DNA of 64,000 bases from assembly GCA_021372615.1 (NCBI GenBank), contig JAJFUB010000102.1:1-64000 (forward strand), in the 5' to 3' direction. This DNA comes from a bacterium. GTDB lineage: Bacteria; Armatimonadota; Zipacnadia; Zipacnadales; UBA11051. Numbering within the stretch: position 1 is the first letter of the stretch; each line of letters starts with the position of its first letter. Below the pieces are notes generated by a model. It ran no database searches. It had not been told where the DNA came from and saw only the letters and a list, made by a program, of their open reading frames with translations. Shown in pieces: positions 28-63,335 of this stretch. The translations under genes and the position numbers were made by a program.

Positions 28-51
28 AGGCGGGCTGGAAGCCCGCACTAC
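28..51. repeat. Palindromic repeat, GGCTGGAAGCC family
   Basis: A 24-bp stretch containing the small palindrome GCGGGCTGGAAGCCCGC. The same 24 bases recur at 39018-39041 inside the acyl-CoA synthetase gene, and the GGCTGGAAGCC core recurs in the long palindrome at 6699-6779. It lies downstream of the ferritin gene (minus strand), so it might also act as a transcript-end hairpin. That role is inference. Confidence 0.7.
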
Positions 52-2197: not shown

Positions 2198-4909
<2,712 letters not shown>

Positions 4910-6698: not shown

Positions 6699-6779
6699 GC
6701 CGTAGGAGCGCCGGCTTCCAGCCGGCCCGCCGTTGCCGTAGGGACACGCGTGCCGGCTGGAAGCCGGCGCTCCTACGGC
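6699..6779. repeat. Long palindromic element (28-bp perfect arms)
   Basis: Arms 6699-6726 and 6752-6779 are perfect inverted repeats around a 25-nt loop. They contain the GGCTTCCAGCC/GGCTGGAAGCC core shared with 28-51 and 38975-39041. It fills most of the 114-bp gap between two same-strand genes. It could form a very stable hairpin that ends or stabilises the upstream transcript, but there is no T-run. Confidence 0.85.
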
Positions 6780-17164: not shown

Positions 17165-17268
17165 GTTAGACCTCGGAATGCGACAAGGGTTTCCTCTTCG
17201 TGCGGTGCATGATAGGGGAGCACAATCGCAGGAGTCAACGCAAGCGGCTCAAAATGCCCTCAAGCCCC

Positions 17269-17382
17269 TATTTCGGGGACACCATACTTAATTCGACGTC
17301 GACAGTGCCGGACGACAGGCCACGCGGGGCGGAATTAAGTATGGTGTCCCCGAAATAGCGGATGGTGTCCCCGAAATAGCGG
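17269..17382. repeat. REP-type inverted repeat (26-bp arms) with partial third copy
   Basis: Arms 17269-17294 and 17332-17357 are perfect 26-bp inverted repeats containing GGGGACACCATACTTAATT, separated by 37 bp. An 18- to 20-bp partial direct copy (ATGGTGTCCCCGAAATAGCG) follows at 17362-17381. From memory, this motif is widespread next to REP-associated tyrosine transposase genes, but no such gene is present here. It lies between the divergent CapA-like and MoxR genes. The rest of the 257-bp gap holds the moxR promoter. Confidence 0.85.
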
Positions 17383-24887: not shown

Positions 24888-25793
24888 ATGTCTGACCGAC
24901 CCCAACAGGCTGTCCTGGAGACCGATCTGCCCGGCGCGATCAGCCGCCGGCAGGGCAAGGTCCGGGACATCTATGAGTACCCCGACGGGATGCTGCTCGT
25001 CGCCAGCGACCGCATCTCCGCCTTCGATGTCATCATGGCGAACGGCATCCCCGGCAAGGGCAAGGTGCTGACCCAGCTCTCCGTGTTCTGGTTTGCCCAG
25101 ACCGAGAGCATCATCCCCAACCACCTGCTCAGCCACCGCGTGAAGGACTTCCCGGCCGCGGTGCAGGACCAGGGCTACATCCTGGCCGACCGCAGCATGT
25201 GGTGCCGCAAGGCCCAGGTCGTGCCGATTGAGTGCGTGGTGCGGGGCTATCTGGCCGGCTCGGGGTGGAAGTCGTACCAGAAGAGCGGCCTGGTGGGCGA
25301 GCATAAGCTGGGGCCGGGCCTGGTCGAGTCGGCCAGGCTGCCGGAGCCGCTGTTCACCCCCACCACCAAGGAAGAGAGCGGGCATGACATGCCCGTGGAT
25401 ATGCAGGGCGTGCGCGACCGGGTGGGGACGGAACTGGCCGAGCGGCTGCGTGACGTCTCGCTGCAAGTGTTCACCGCCGCGTCGGACCTCGCCGCCTCGC
25501 GCGGCTTCCTGCTTTGTGACACGAAGTTCGAGTTCGGGATCGCTGACGGTGAGCTGATCCTCGTGGACGAGCTGCTGACGCCGGACTCGTCGCGCTACTG
25601 GGACGCCGGCAAGTACGAGCCGGGGCGCGCCCAGGAGGCCTTCGACAAGCAGTACGTGCGCGATTACCTGGAGACCCTCGACTGGAACAAGGAGCCCCCC
25701 GGCCCGGAACTGCCTGGCGAGGTCGTCGGCGAGACCCGACGCATCTACCAGGAGGCATACCGGCGCCTCACGGGGCTGGAGCCGCCGGGGTAG
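24888..25793 (+). CDS. purC: SAICAR synthetase (purine biosynthesis)
   Basis: A 301-residue phosphoribosylaminoimidazole-succinocarboxamide synthase, step eight of purine synthesis, joining CAIR with aspartate using ATP. Signatures are RQGKVRDIYEYPDGMLLVASDRISAFD at the N-terminus (nucleotide-binding), ECVVRGYLAGSGWKSY and DTKFEFG plus VDELLTPDSSRYW. ATG 24888 has GGAGGGA upstream; a longer frame from 24873 is not needed. Length fits the longer bacterial/yeast-like form. It is not in a purine operon here but follows the threonine genes. Confidence 0.97.
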   Translation: MSDRPQQAVLETDLPGAISRRQGKVRDIYEYPDGMLLVASDRISAFDVIMANGIPGKGKVLTQLSVFWFAQTESIIPNHLLSHRVKDFPAAVQDQGYILADRSMWCRKAQVVPIECVVRGYLAGSGWKSYQKSGLVGEHKLGPGLVESARLPEPLFTPTTKEESGHDMPVDMQGVRDRVGTELAERLRDVSLQVFTAASDLAASRGFLLCDTKFEFGIADGELILVDELLTPDSSRYWDAGKYEPGRAQEAFDKQYVRDYLETLDWNKEPPGPELPGEVVGETRRIYQEAYRRLTGLEPPG

Positions 25794-25795
25794 TC

Positions 25796-25852
25796 GGAGC
25801 GCGGCTCTCCATTGCCGCACCCCGGGAAAGCGGCTCTGGAGAGCCGCGCTCC
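25796..25852. repeat. Palindromic element between purC and tilS
   Basis: 16-bp perfect arms GGAGCGCGGCTCTCCA (25796-25811) and TGGAGAGCCGCGCTCC (25837-25852) around a 25-nt loop. It fills most of the 77-bp gap. The 25-nt loop length is the same as in the 6699-6779 palindrome, suggesting related architecture. It may end the purC transcript. Confidence 0.8.
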
Positions 25853-25870
25853 CACGGGCCGCAGGCCATC

Positions 25871-38458: not shown

Positions 38459-38534
38459 TGGGGCGGGAGCTTGTGCCCCGCCCATGCCGTCTGAGTGATG
38501 CCCTGTGGGGCGGGGTACAAGCCCCCGCCCTACA
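38459..38534. repeat. Two GC-rich hairpin repeats
   Basis: Two related palindromes, TGTGGGGCGGG...CCCGCCC (38457-38483) and TGTGGGGCGGGG...CCCCGCCCTACA (38504-38534), both with a short spacer containing CTTGT or ACAAG. They fill the gap between the oxidoreductase and the acyl-CoA synthetase and belong to the window's general class of GC-rich palindromes. Confidence 0.7.
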
Positions 38535-38559
38535 GTCGTTTCTTCAGGAGAACCCACTC

Positions 38560-40107
38560 ATGCCCATCGGTCTCCCCCACATCGCCGCCTTCTGGGACAA
38601 CACCGTCGCCAAGCTCCCGAACGCCCTGGCACTCGTGTACGAGGACCAGACGCTCACATACGCCGAGGCGGATGCGCTCATCGCCCGCCTGGCCGGCCAT
38701 CTGGCCGACGTCGCCGGGGTCGGCAAGGGCGACCGGGTCTGCCTGGCCCTGCCCAACTGCCCGGAGTTCATCGTGGCGTACTGGGCGACGCTGCGGCTCG
38801 GGGCGGTCGTGGCTCCGGTGAACACCCGCCTGCGGGCCGATGAGCTGCAGTATGTGCTGAGGAACTGCGACCCGAAGGTCGTCGTCGTGCATGAGCAGAC
38901 CGCTGCGGCCACGTGCGAGGCGCTGGCGGCGGAGGGGCTGACGCCGCATGTGCTCGTAGCGGGCAAAGCAGGGGGTAGTGCGGGCTTCCAGCTCGCCCCC
39001 TTGGACCTGGAGGCCTTAGGCGGGCTGGAAGCCCGCACTACTGCTAACGATATCGCCGCCGATGACCTCGCCGTGATCCTCCACACCTCGGGCACCACCG
39101 GCGTCCCCAAGGGCGCGATGATGCGCCACAGCGACTTGCTGCTCAATGTCTGGAACGCCATCCTGGCCCACTCGCTGCGCCATGAGGACCGGCACCTGCT
39201 CGTCATCCCGTGCTTCGCGCCGACCGCCTCATACAGCCTCCTGGCCAGTTGCGCGTACCTGGGCGCGGCGATCATCATCGCCCCGCGTCCGCAGCCGGCC
39301 GAGATACTCGATCTCATCGAGCGCCACCGCTGCACGACCTTCATCGGCGTGCCCACGCTGTTCCATCTCGTGCTGCAGGAGGCACGCCTGGCGAGCGCGG
39401 ACCTGTCGTCACTGCGGCTGATCGCCTACAGCGGCTCCCCCATGCCCACGCGCACCATCCGCCTGCTGCGGGAGCGCTTCCCCGGCGTGGCGCTGCACAA
39501 CTTCTTCGGACTGACCGAGACGATCTCCATCACCCATGTCCTGCCCTCGGCCGACGCCGCCGAGCGGGCCGACTCCATCGGCAAGCTGCTGCCCGAGGTG
39601 TACGCGAAGATCGTGGATGAGCATGACGTCGAGGTGCCCGCCGGTGAGGTCGGGGAGCTGTGCCTGCGGCGGGACAACGTGATCCCCGGCTACTGGAACC
39701 GGCCGGGGCTGCTGGAGGAGGCCATCAAGGACGGCTGGTTCCACACCGGCGACTTCGCCCGGGTCGACGCGCAGGGGTACTTCACCGTTCAGGGGCGCAA
39801 GAAGGAGATGATCATCGTCGCCGGGCAGAACGTGTATGCCCACGAGGTGGAGTTGGTCATCCTGCAGCATGACGGTGTGCGCGAGGTGGCCGTGGTGGGC
39901 ATCCCGGCGACCGGCGCGCGAGCGGCGCTGGGGGAGCTGGTCAAAGCCGTGGTCGTGTGCCAGCCCGATGTGACGCTGCGCGACCTGGACATCAAGCGCC
40001 ACTGCGCCGGGCTGCTGCCCAGCTACAAGGTGCCGCAGGTGGTGGAGTTCCGCGAGGAGCTGCCGCGCAACCCGACGGGGAAAGTGCTGAAGCGGGAGCT
40101 GCAGTGA
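38560..40107 (+). CDS. AMP-forming acyl-CoA synthetase/ligase
   Basis: A 515-residue adenylate-forming enzyme that activates a carboxylic acid with ATP and links it to CoA. Motifs are the P-loop LHTSGTTGVPKG (174-185), FFGLTETISI, the A5-A8 region WFHTGDFARVDAQGYFTVQGRKKEMI and the C-terminal catalytic Lys in PRNPTGKVLKREL. Substrate is unknown. ATG 38560 has CAGGAG about 9 bp upstream; the frame extends far upstream inside the oxidoreductase but that is rejected. Oddity: residues 139-161, just before the P-loop, are encoded by an 18-bp-arm palindrome (38975-39041), an apparent in-frame insertion. Confidence 0.93.
   Translation: MPIGLPHIAAFWDNTVAKLPNALALVYEDQTLTYAEADALIARLAGHLADVAGVGKGDRVCLALPNCPEFIVAYWATLRLGAVVAPVNTRLRADELQYVLRNCDPKVVVVHEQTAAATCEALAAEGLTPHVLVAGKAGGSAGFQLAPLDLEALGGLEARTTANDIAADDLAVILHTSGTTGVPKGAMMRHSDLLLNVWNAILAHSLRHEDRHLLVIPCFAPTASYSLLASCAYLGAAIIIAPRPQPAEILDLIERHRCTTFIGVPTLFHLVLQEARLASADLSSLRLIAYSGSPMPTRTIRLLRERFPGVALHNFFGLTETISITHVLPSADAAERADSIGKLLPEVYAKIVDEHDVEVPAGEVGELCLRRDNVIPGYWNRPGLLEEAIKDGWFHTGDFARVDAQGYFTVQGRKKEMIIVAGQNVYAHEVELVILQHDGVREVAVVGIPATGARAALGELVKAVVVCQPDVTLRDLDIKRHCAGLLPSYKVPQVVEFREELPRNPTGKVLKRELQ
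38975..39041. repeat. Palindromic element inside the acyl-CoA synthetase gene
   Basis: GTAGTGCGGGCTTCCAGC (38975-38992) and its exact complement GCTGGAAGCCCGCACTAC (39024-39041) flank a 31-nt spacer. The right arm with flanks (39018-39041) equals window bases 28-51. It is translated in frame (GSAGFQLAPLDL...) without a stop. Confidence 0.88.
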
Positions 40108-48816: not shown

Positions 48817-48967
48817 TGCCCGACAAGAGTGTCGGGCGTACCACCATCCCACGTTGGTGCCCGACAAGAGTGTCGGGCGTACCACCATCCCACGTTGGCG
48901 CCCGACAGGAATGTCGGGCGTACTACCATCCCACGTTGGCGCCCGACAAGAGTGTCGGGCGTACCAC
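48817..48967. repeat. 41-bp tandem repeat array (about 3.7 copies)
   Basis: Units start at about 48817, 48858, 48899 and 48940. Each carries the palindrome GCCCGACAAGAGTGTCGGGC followed by GTACCACCATCCCACGTTGG. The third unit varies (ACAGGAATGT) and the last is incomplete. It sits 8 bp after the beta-helix stop and 10 bp before the convergent GH20-like gene, filling the gap. Each unit can form a hairpin, so it may end both transcripts. Confidence 0.9.
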
Positions 48968-62285: not shown

Positions 62286-63335
62286 TCAGACCGTCACCGC
62301 CGCGTGCGTGCTCGCCGCCTGCACCGCTGCCTCGGCCAGCTTCAGTGCCGCTACCCCGTCCTCGGCTGTGGCCAGCGGCGTCTCCTCACCCCGAATGGCC
62401 TGTAGCACCGTCTCGATCTGCACGCGGTAGATGTCGTCTCGCGCCACGATGACATGCTCGACGTGATGGGCGTGCCTCGGGCTGTCGTCCCTCTCGAAGT
62501 CAAACAGCTCCAGCATGCCCGTCTGGAAGTCGTACCTGACGACCCCCCGGTCGCCGTACAGCTCTACGTGCGAGCGCTGCGGGTGCTGGATGTAGTCCAT
62601 GTGGATCTGACCGACGGCCCCGGACTTGTAGCGCACCAGCAGGCTGAATAGGTTCGGCTGCGGGAGCATCGGCAGGTCGCCCAGCGTCGCCGACTCGGCG
62701 CTCACCCGCTCGGGCTCCCCCAGGAACAGCCGCATGTAGTCCAGCAGGTGCGTGTAGTCAATGATCAGCGCGTTGGGCTCGGTCATGCGGTAGGGCGTGG
62801 TGGCGCACATGAGCGTGAAGTACGTGCCGACCATCGCCCGCCCGCCGACGAGTGTCCCCAGCACGCCGGAGCGCACGATCTCCAGCACACGCCGCAGCCC
62901 GCCGTGGGAGCGCAGGGAGTAGCCGACGGCGAACACGCGCGTGGGAGGGGTCACCGACCCCGAACTGTCGCGGTCGGTGACCGCTCCCACGCCTCCCCCC
63001 CCGCCCACCGTCTCCGCAATCGCTTCCGCATTCCCCACCGAGTCCGCCAGCGGCTTCTCGCACAGCACGTGGCATCCGGCCTGCCAGGCCGCCTCGACCA
63101 TCGGGCGGTGCAGGTGGTTAGGCGTGCAGATGTAGACCACGTCCGGCCGTTCGGCCAGCGCTGCCGCGTAGTCGGTGAAGGGCCGCGCGCCAGGCGCCTG
63201 CTCCGTCGCCGCCTGCAGGTTCGCCTCCAGCGTGTCGCAGACCCGGACCTCCGCTGCGGGCTGCTCGCACCACAGCCGCGCATGGCGCTTGCCGATTGAT
63301 CCACAGCCTGCGACGAGCACTCGTATCCGGTCCAT
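62286..63335 (-). CDS. Gfo/Idh/MocA-family oxidoreductase (third)
   Basis: A 349-residue NAD(P)-dependent oxidoreductase. The Rossmann start is VLVAGCGSIGKRH, the signature is CEKPLADS with its Lys near residue 91, and the C-terminal domain has IIDYTHLLDYMRLFLGEP. Substrate is unknown. ATG 63335 has GGAGGCG upstream; a longer frame to 63407 is rejected. Oddity: residues 116-132 (VGAVTDRDSSGSVTPPT) are encoded by a 50-bp palindromic repeat (62941-62990), inserted between the helix after CEKP and the VFAVGY strand. The Gly run before it (GGGGG) also looks inserted. Confidence 0.9.
   Translation of the reverse strand: MDRIRVLVAGCGSIGKRHARLWCEQPAAEVRVCDTLEANLQAATEQAPGARPFTDYAAALAERPDVVYICTPNHLHRPMVEAAWQAGCHVLCEKPLADSVGNAEAIAETVGGGGGVGAVTDRDSSGSVTPPTRVFAVGYSLRSHGGLRRVLEIVRSGVLGTLVGGRAMVGTYFTLMCATTPYRMTEPNALIIDYTHLLDYMRLFLGEPERVSAESATLGDLPMLPQPNLFSLLVRYKSGAVGQIHMDYIQHPQRSHVELYGDRGVVRYDFQTGMLELFDFERDDSPRHAHHVEHVIVARDDIYRVQIETVLQAIRGEETPLATAEDGVAALKLAEAAVQAASTHAAVTV
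62941..62990. repeat. 50-bp palindromic element inside an oxidoreductase gene (copy 2)
   Basis: 48/50 identical to 4571-4620 in valS; the two differences are in the central loop. It is read in frame on the minus strand as VGAVTDRDSSGSVTPPT, 12 of 17 residues equal to the valS peptide because the element is palindromic. Confidence 0.9.

Follow-up and report, generated by a model that had tools for sequence, protein, structure and literature searches.

The palindrome that lies in frame in an acyl-CoA synthetase gene of the 64,000-nt stretch of DNA analysed here (the window) is a head-to-head doublet of GTAG-tagged REPs (BIME/REPIN), an element of a known kind. It spans 67 nt (38975..39041, plus strand) and encodes residues 139-161 of the protein. 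We consider it very probable that this REPIN is a non-autonomous mobile element, most likely moved into the gene by a RAYT (REP-associated HUH-type tyrosine transposase), and that the peptide it encodes is a passenger tolerated in a linker. The host gene (38560..40107, plus strand) encodes an intact synthetase of 515 aa with AMP-binding (PF00501, E=4e-90) and AMP-binding_C (PF13193) domains; its reading frame is open, with no interruption across the palindrome, and the element lies shortly before the A3/P-loop motif LHTSGTTGVPKG. The tryptic peptide AGGSAGFQLAPLDLEALGGLEAR of the predicted protein covers the element, and a PDB search confirmed the enzyme family and nothing beyond it.

An earlier note on this DNA had described exact 18-bp arms with a 31-nt spacer, in frame over these residues and ahead of the P-loop, and each of these features was reproduced. 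The arms GTAGTGCGGGCTTCCAGC (38975-38992) and GCTGGAAGCCCGCACTAC (39024-39041) are exact complements separated by 31 nt, and they extend to 23 nt when one mismatch is permitted. Each arm is a small hairpin behind a tag, the family-A unit being GTAG-T-GCGGGCT-TCC-AGCCCGC (GTAG-TGCGGGCTTCCAGCCCGC). In the left unit (38975..38997, plus strand) GTAG and a T are followed by the hairpin GCGGGCT-TCC-AGCTCGC, which differs from the family-A sequence by a C-to-T change with G:U pairing still possible in RNA; the right unit (39019..39041, minus strand) is inverted, has the exact family-A sequence and carries CTAC at its end. Both units of the doublet, GTAG-T-GCGGGCT-TCC-AGC[C/T]CGC placed head to head, have the GTAG tag unpaired at one end and then the short hairpin that define the GTAG REP superfamily. 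Their hairpins are 23 nt apart, and the inverted pair together with its spacer can fold into one hairpin, as in a REPIN; the predicted RNA fold of the element has an energy of -59.5 kcal/mol (z = -6.5).

Counting the core GGCTGGAAGCCCGC, as had been proposed, gave 94 exact copies in the 6.4-Mb genome versus 0 for the reversed control, which excludes chance. All genome counts come from pattern searches and from stretches around the copies in a single representative assembly of 171 contigs, and the searches used exact or near-exact cores, so that older copies are missed. The family-A copies are spread over many contigs, in keeping with a high-copy, dispersed REP; they lie in unrelated surroundings, and their flanks share nothing outside the element. 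Some units stand alone and others are paired head to head, in most cases 22-25 nt apart, and many of the 63 scorable clusters are such doublets. The spacer of the synthetase copy resembles those of other family-A copies at chance level (421 of 2000 shuffles reach the same likeness), and the case for a joint arrival of both units therefore rests on spacing and orientation. As the earlier note had stated, the right arm and its flank recur at the start of the window, bases 39018-39041 being identical over 24 nt to a single intergenic family-A REP (28..51, minus strand). The kinship it had drawn with a further palindrome at 6699-6779 held in part: an 11-bp core, GGCTGGAAGCC, is common to both (4 matches versus 0.09 expected), but that palindrome belongs to a sister family, C, and not to the same family. 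The hairpin core GCGGGCTTCCAGCCCGC also occurs behind another tag, GTTACTGGGACC, in a longer palindrome that is a distinct subfamily (L183, L202, L206, L211, L213, L216, L217, L229, L233).

The palindrome is absent from the linkers of 30 homologous synthetases, in which the longest perfect stem is 8 bp compared with 18 here; a general tendency of these linkers to be palindromic was thus rejected. Homologues that share the residues without the palindrome had been named as the sign of native coding sequence, and none of the homologues shares either the residues or the palindrome. Residues 139-161 clearly derive from the element. A discrete insertion of 20-25 residues had also been predicted, and here the alignment disagreed: from N88 to T176 this protein has 88 residues and the homologues mostly 80-84 (range 74-92), and its linker exceeds the usual length by only about 6 residues. 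With the element subtracted the spacing would be about 66, under the smallest homologue value (74), which suggests that the element displaced native linker, part of which was probably lost or overwritten. As 67 is not divisible by three, the insertion must have come with other changes, and insertion together with the loss of some 16 native residues would be the simplest account. The fit of the spacer-encoded residues to the homologue profile is within the range of shuffles (351 of 1000 reach it), and these residues need not be native; the spacer is supported neither as native linker nor, by the comparison among family-A copies, as a common REPIN spacer. The AlphaFold model has a mean pLDDT of 89.3; its blocks for residues 131-160, with values of 71, 64 and 79, are among the least confident of the protein, and this segment is probably a flexible linker.

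Family A has sister families in the same genome. Family C, to which the intergenic doublet at 6699..6779 (GTAGGAGCGCCGGCTTCCAGCCGGC) belongs, has the GTAG tag and TCC loop of family A with compensating changes in the stem; its unit, GTAG-GAGC-GCC[G/A]GCT-TCC-AGC[C/T]GGC, has 58 genomic copies when one mismatch is allowed. Family B carries a GTGG tag (GTGG-GAG-GGGTC-ACC-GACCC), with 40 units in the genome at up to two mismatches versus the form of the query taken from genome G001. One family-B doublet of the window (GTGGGAGGGGTCACCGACCCC; 4571..4620, plus strand) lies in frame in the valyl-tRNA synthetase (ValRS) gene (2210..4909, plus strand), within a discrete 22-residue insertion that relatives lack, and another (62941..62992, plus strand) is in frame inside a Gfo/Idh/MocA oxidoreductase gene (62286-63320, minus strand). 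In 31 of 31 family-B units of this genome a pyrimidine, C or T, stands before the tag (background 0.49), which suggests a target preference; C precedes the unit in 32 of 32 cases in family C, and family A follows no such rule.

The position of the copies relative to genes was scored by a gene finder for which the window served as training sequence and which was applied, with uncurated gene calls, to the stretches around copies genome-wide, the coding density of the sampled stretches being 0.888. Family A has 16 of its 63 scorable clusters in genes and 47 in intergenic DNA, which bears out the proposal that one repeat family is both intergenic and protein-coding. This fraction is far under the coding density, as is that of family C (7 of 28 clusters); in family B, 22 of 28 scorable clusters (79%) are genic, a value indistinguishable from the coding density (p = 0.12). 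Family A is predominantly extragenic, as GTAG REPs are, and family B is not; the synthetase copy is itself intragenic. A frame-specific burden of stop codons was rejected as the cause of the genic excess of family B, the open-frame counts of A and B doublets being alike.

In most cases both flanks of the in-gene copies have coding bias in the frame of the gene, with the exception of one family-A copy near a gene 3' end in L176. Pfam domains were found on both sides of the element in MutS, UvrA, ValRS, a NuoF-like protein, an FGGY kinase and others, and an RNA pseudouridylate synthase is also among the element-bearing genes. In MutS a family-B doublet forms a discrete 20-residue insertion relative to its relatives, and the gene has a second insertion site; in a DUF6785 protein a family-A doublet falls where two relatives lack about 26 residues. 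The encoded peptides vary with frame and strand (AGFQ, GGLEAR, GRAGSPH, AGWKPA, VRASSPQ), and frames that read a stop are absent among in-gene copies, which argues that the DNA is kept and not a peptide. Outside the window, family-B copies in genes were seen at L239, L242, L245, L250 and elsewhere, and the NuoF-like protein contains three tandem units.

The nearest relative is a 75%-identical synthetase of Armatimonadetes bacterium Ch33 (JABLXH, G001, locus L061), which has a linker of equal length with TTGGGAGGGGTCTCCGACCCCG at the corresponding place. This unit belongs to a family-B-like repeat of that genome, which has 13 copies when two mismatches are allowed, versus 0 for the control, and 8 of its 11 clusters in intergenic DNA. 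Two genera of one family thus hold different REPs in one linker, either because a permissive linker was hit repeatedly or because one REP succeeded another there. There is a precedent in recB of two Xanthomonas species, with different REPs at about one site according to PMC3733652. In G013, from another family of the order, the identical hairpin core stands behind the tag CCGCGTGGG and is intergenic in 15 of 15 clusters (L342-L356), so that by sequence comparison the core is conserved and the tag changes; in G010 the family-A hairpin core lies in a gene in 1 of 8 cases.

The genome contains seven Y1_Tnp genes. One of them, near the end of contig C34, matches the NCBIfam model REP_Tyr_transpos with 81.3 bits (cut-off 80) and has the HUH motif NHVH; this RAYT is bracketed by family C: one flank has a full doublet, and the opposite flank has a single unit plus a second that the contig end truncates. 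Another gene (C146, L174) passes the same model with 88.7 bits and has a GTAG hairpin of other sequence nearby. No RAYT flanked by family A was found among the seven Y1_Tnp loci, and we infer the RAYT mobility of this family from its related tag, loop and architecture. At L169 (contig C56) an IS200/IS605-type Y1 transposase gene lies amid several GTAGCCGTGGGCGGCAGCCCACGG hairpins, possibly as a second REPtron.

In the account that we favour, a RAYT would recognise the tagged hairpin in single-stranded DNA and would most likely have moved the doublet into the synthetase gene. Its survival there could be owed to the flexibility of the linker that precedes the P-loop and to a frame in which the TAG within the tag is not read as a stop, while loss of native linker kept the gene as a whole in frame; the element-encoded peptide would be a passenger and the enzyme presumably still works. 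Several observations speak against this account: the bracketed RAYT is that of family C, the change of about +6 residues is unequal to the element, whose length would by itself shift the frame, and the spacer is like those of other copies only at chance level; no second genome of the genus was available to compare for an empty site. Displacement of the native linker could also be explained if the doublet had been copied in through recombination, gene conversion or replication template switching between repeats, a route by which a linker would be replaced rather than interrupted and with which the private C-to-T change of the left arm and the failure to find family A's own RAYT agree. We regard it as unlikely, as the copies lie in unrelated surroundings with no shared flanks outside the element, and the discrete sister-family insertions in MutS and ValRS resemble insertion, not conversion.

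Somewhat less probable still is that the hairpin or the peptide was retained for its usefulness, for instance by pausing translation ahead of the P-loop or by altering the linker so as to tune the enzyme. The mRNA hairpin is very stable by folding, the element adjoins a conserved motif and the nearest relative has a REP in the corresponding linker too; against this, the repeat families occur in many unrelated proteins and in various frames, variation in N88-T176 length is tolerated across the homologues, and the spacer residues fit the homologue profile at shuffle level. Hardly any weight can be given to native coding sequence that is palindromic by accident: in its favour are the open frame and an alignment of the residues with homologue linkers, but the exact arms exceed any stem of the 30 homologues and the 94 genomic copies refute it.

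Beyond insertion by a RAYT, for which the evidence argues in the synthetase, we put forward more tentatively, and as the less likely side of the question, that the GTGG family B is gene-indifferent and pyrimidine-preceded, with its 20-22-residue insertions in ValRS and MutS, proteins that are essential or act in repair, and its copies in the UvrA and NuoF-like genes; that the change of tag may redirect the transposase and make an extragenic element a protein-editing one; and that the synthetase linker could be a recurrent permissive site for different REPs in two genera. For a studied TnpAREP, a change from GTAG to GTGG shifts cleavage to CC (PMC8266576), a parallel for family B that is suggestive only.

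The architecture agrees with that of described elements. According to Di Nocera et al. 2013 (PMC3733652), the GTAG REP superfamily has, as here, a GTAG tag, a 7-bp stem and a 3-nt loop, with head-to-head doublets 20-100 bp apart and some copies in genes in frame; the likeness of stem and loop is one of architecture, not of the 24 consensus sequences given there. The same paper reports intragenic REPs in repair genes (uvrA) and pseudouridine synthases, and UvrA and RNA pseudouridylate synthase, as assigned by Pfam, recur here; it counts RPE-4 and RPE-6 among the intragenic REPs of R. conorii, describes CGTC-type repeats as having no transposase link and, in the sections consulted, mentions no Armatimonadota family. 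REPINs (Bertels and Rainey 2011, PMC3116915) share the inverted REP doublet with variable spacer, the folding into one long hairpin and the link to RAYTs; they are described as random in extragenic space, whereas here roughly one in four family-A copies and 79% of those of family B lie in genes. The Rickettsia palindromic elements (RPE) are likewise in-frame palindromes in many unrelated proteins, although RPE-1 is longer than the present element and the likeness is by description, not sequence. RU-1, RU-2 and RU-3 of enterobacteria (PMC2759123) are small mobile repeats with intergenic and in-frame coding insertions as here but, unlike the doublets described here, they are MITE-like, 103-168 bp long and not tagged REP hairpins.

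As a type, an intragenic in-frame REPIN is not new. Novel here are the lineage of the host, the native linker probably displaced by the element, the presence of different REPs at a single site in two genera, and the gene-indifferent GTGG family. A literature search, mainly of papers outside subscription, found no report of REPs in Armatimonadota. REPs are extragenic by name, and in this uncultured lineage they contribute part of the protein sequence of core enzymes. The gene-tolerant family B is the most interesting part, and one genome with families that are 79% versus 25% genic offers a natural comparison for REP landing or survival in coding DNA, a contrast that bears on how new protein segments arise from mobile DNA.

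An Rfam search of the window returned a tRNA only, and further repeats were observed in it. Upstream of the synthetase, at 38460-38535, lies a REP-like pair of GTGGGGCGGGAGCTTGTGCCCCGCC and inverted GTAGGGCGGGGGCTTGTACCCCGCCCC, of which a GTAGGGCGGGGGCTTGTACCCCGCC form is also present near the Y1_Tnp gene in L169. In addition, the window holds a palindrome at 17265-17382 with a 30-nt inverted repeat and an additional arm, an intergenic 26-nt inverted repeat at 25793-25855 and an array of GCCCGACAAGAGTGTCGGGC units at 48818-48961.
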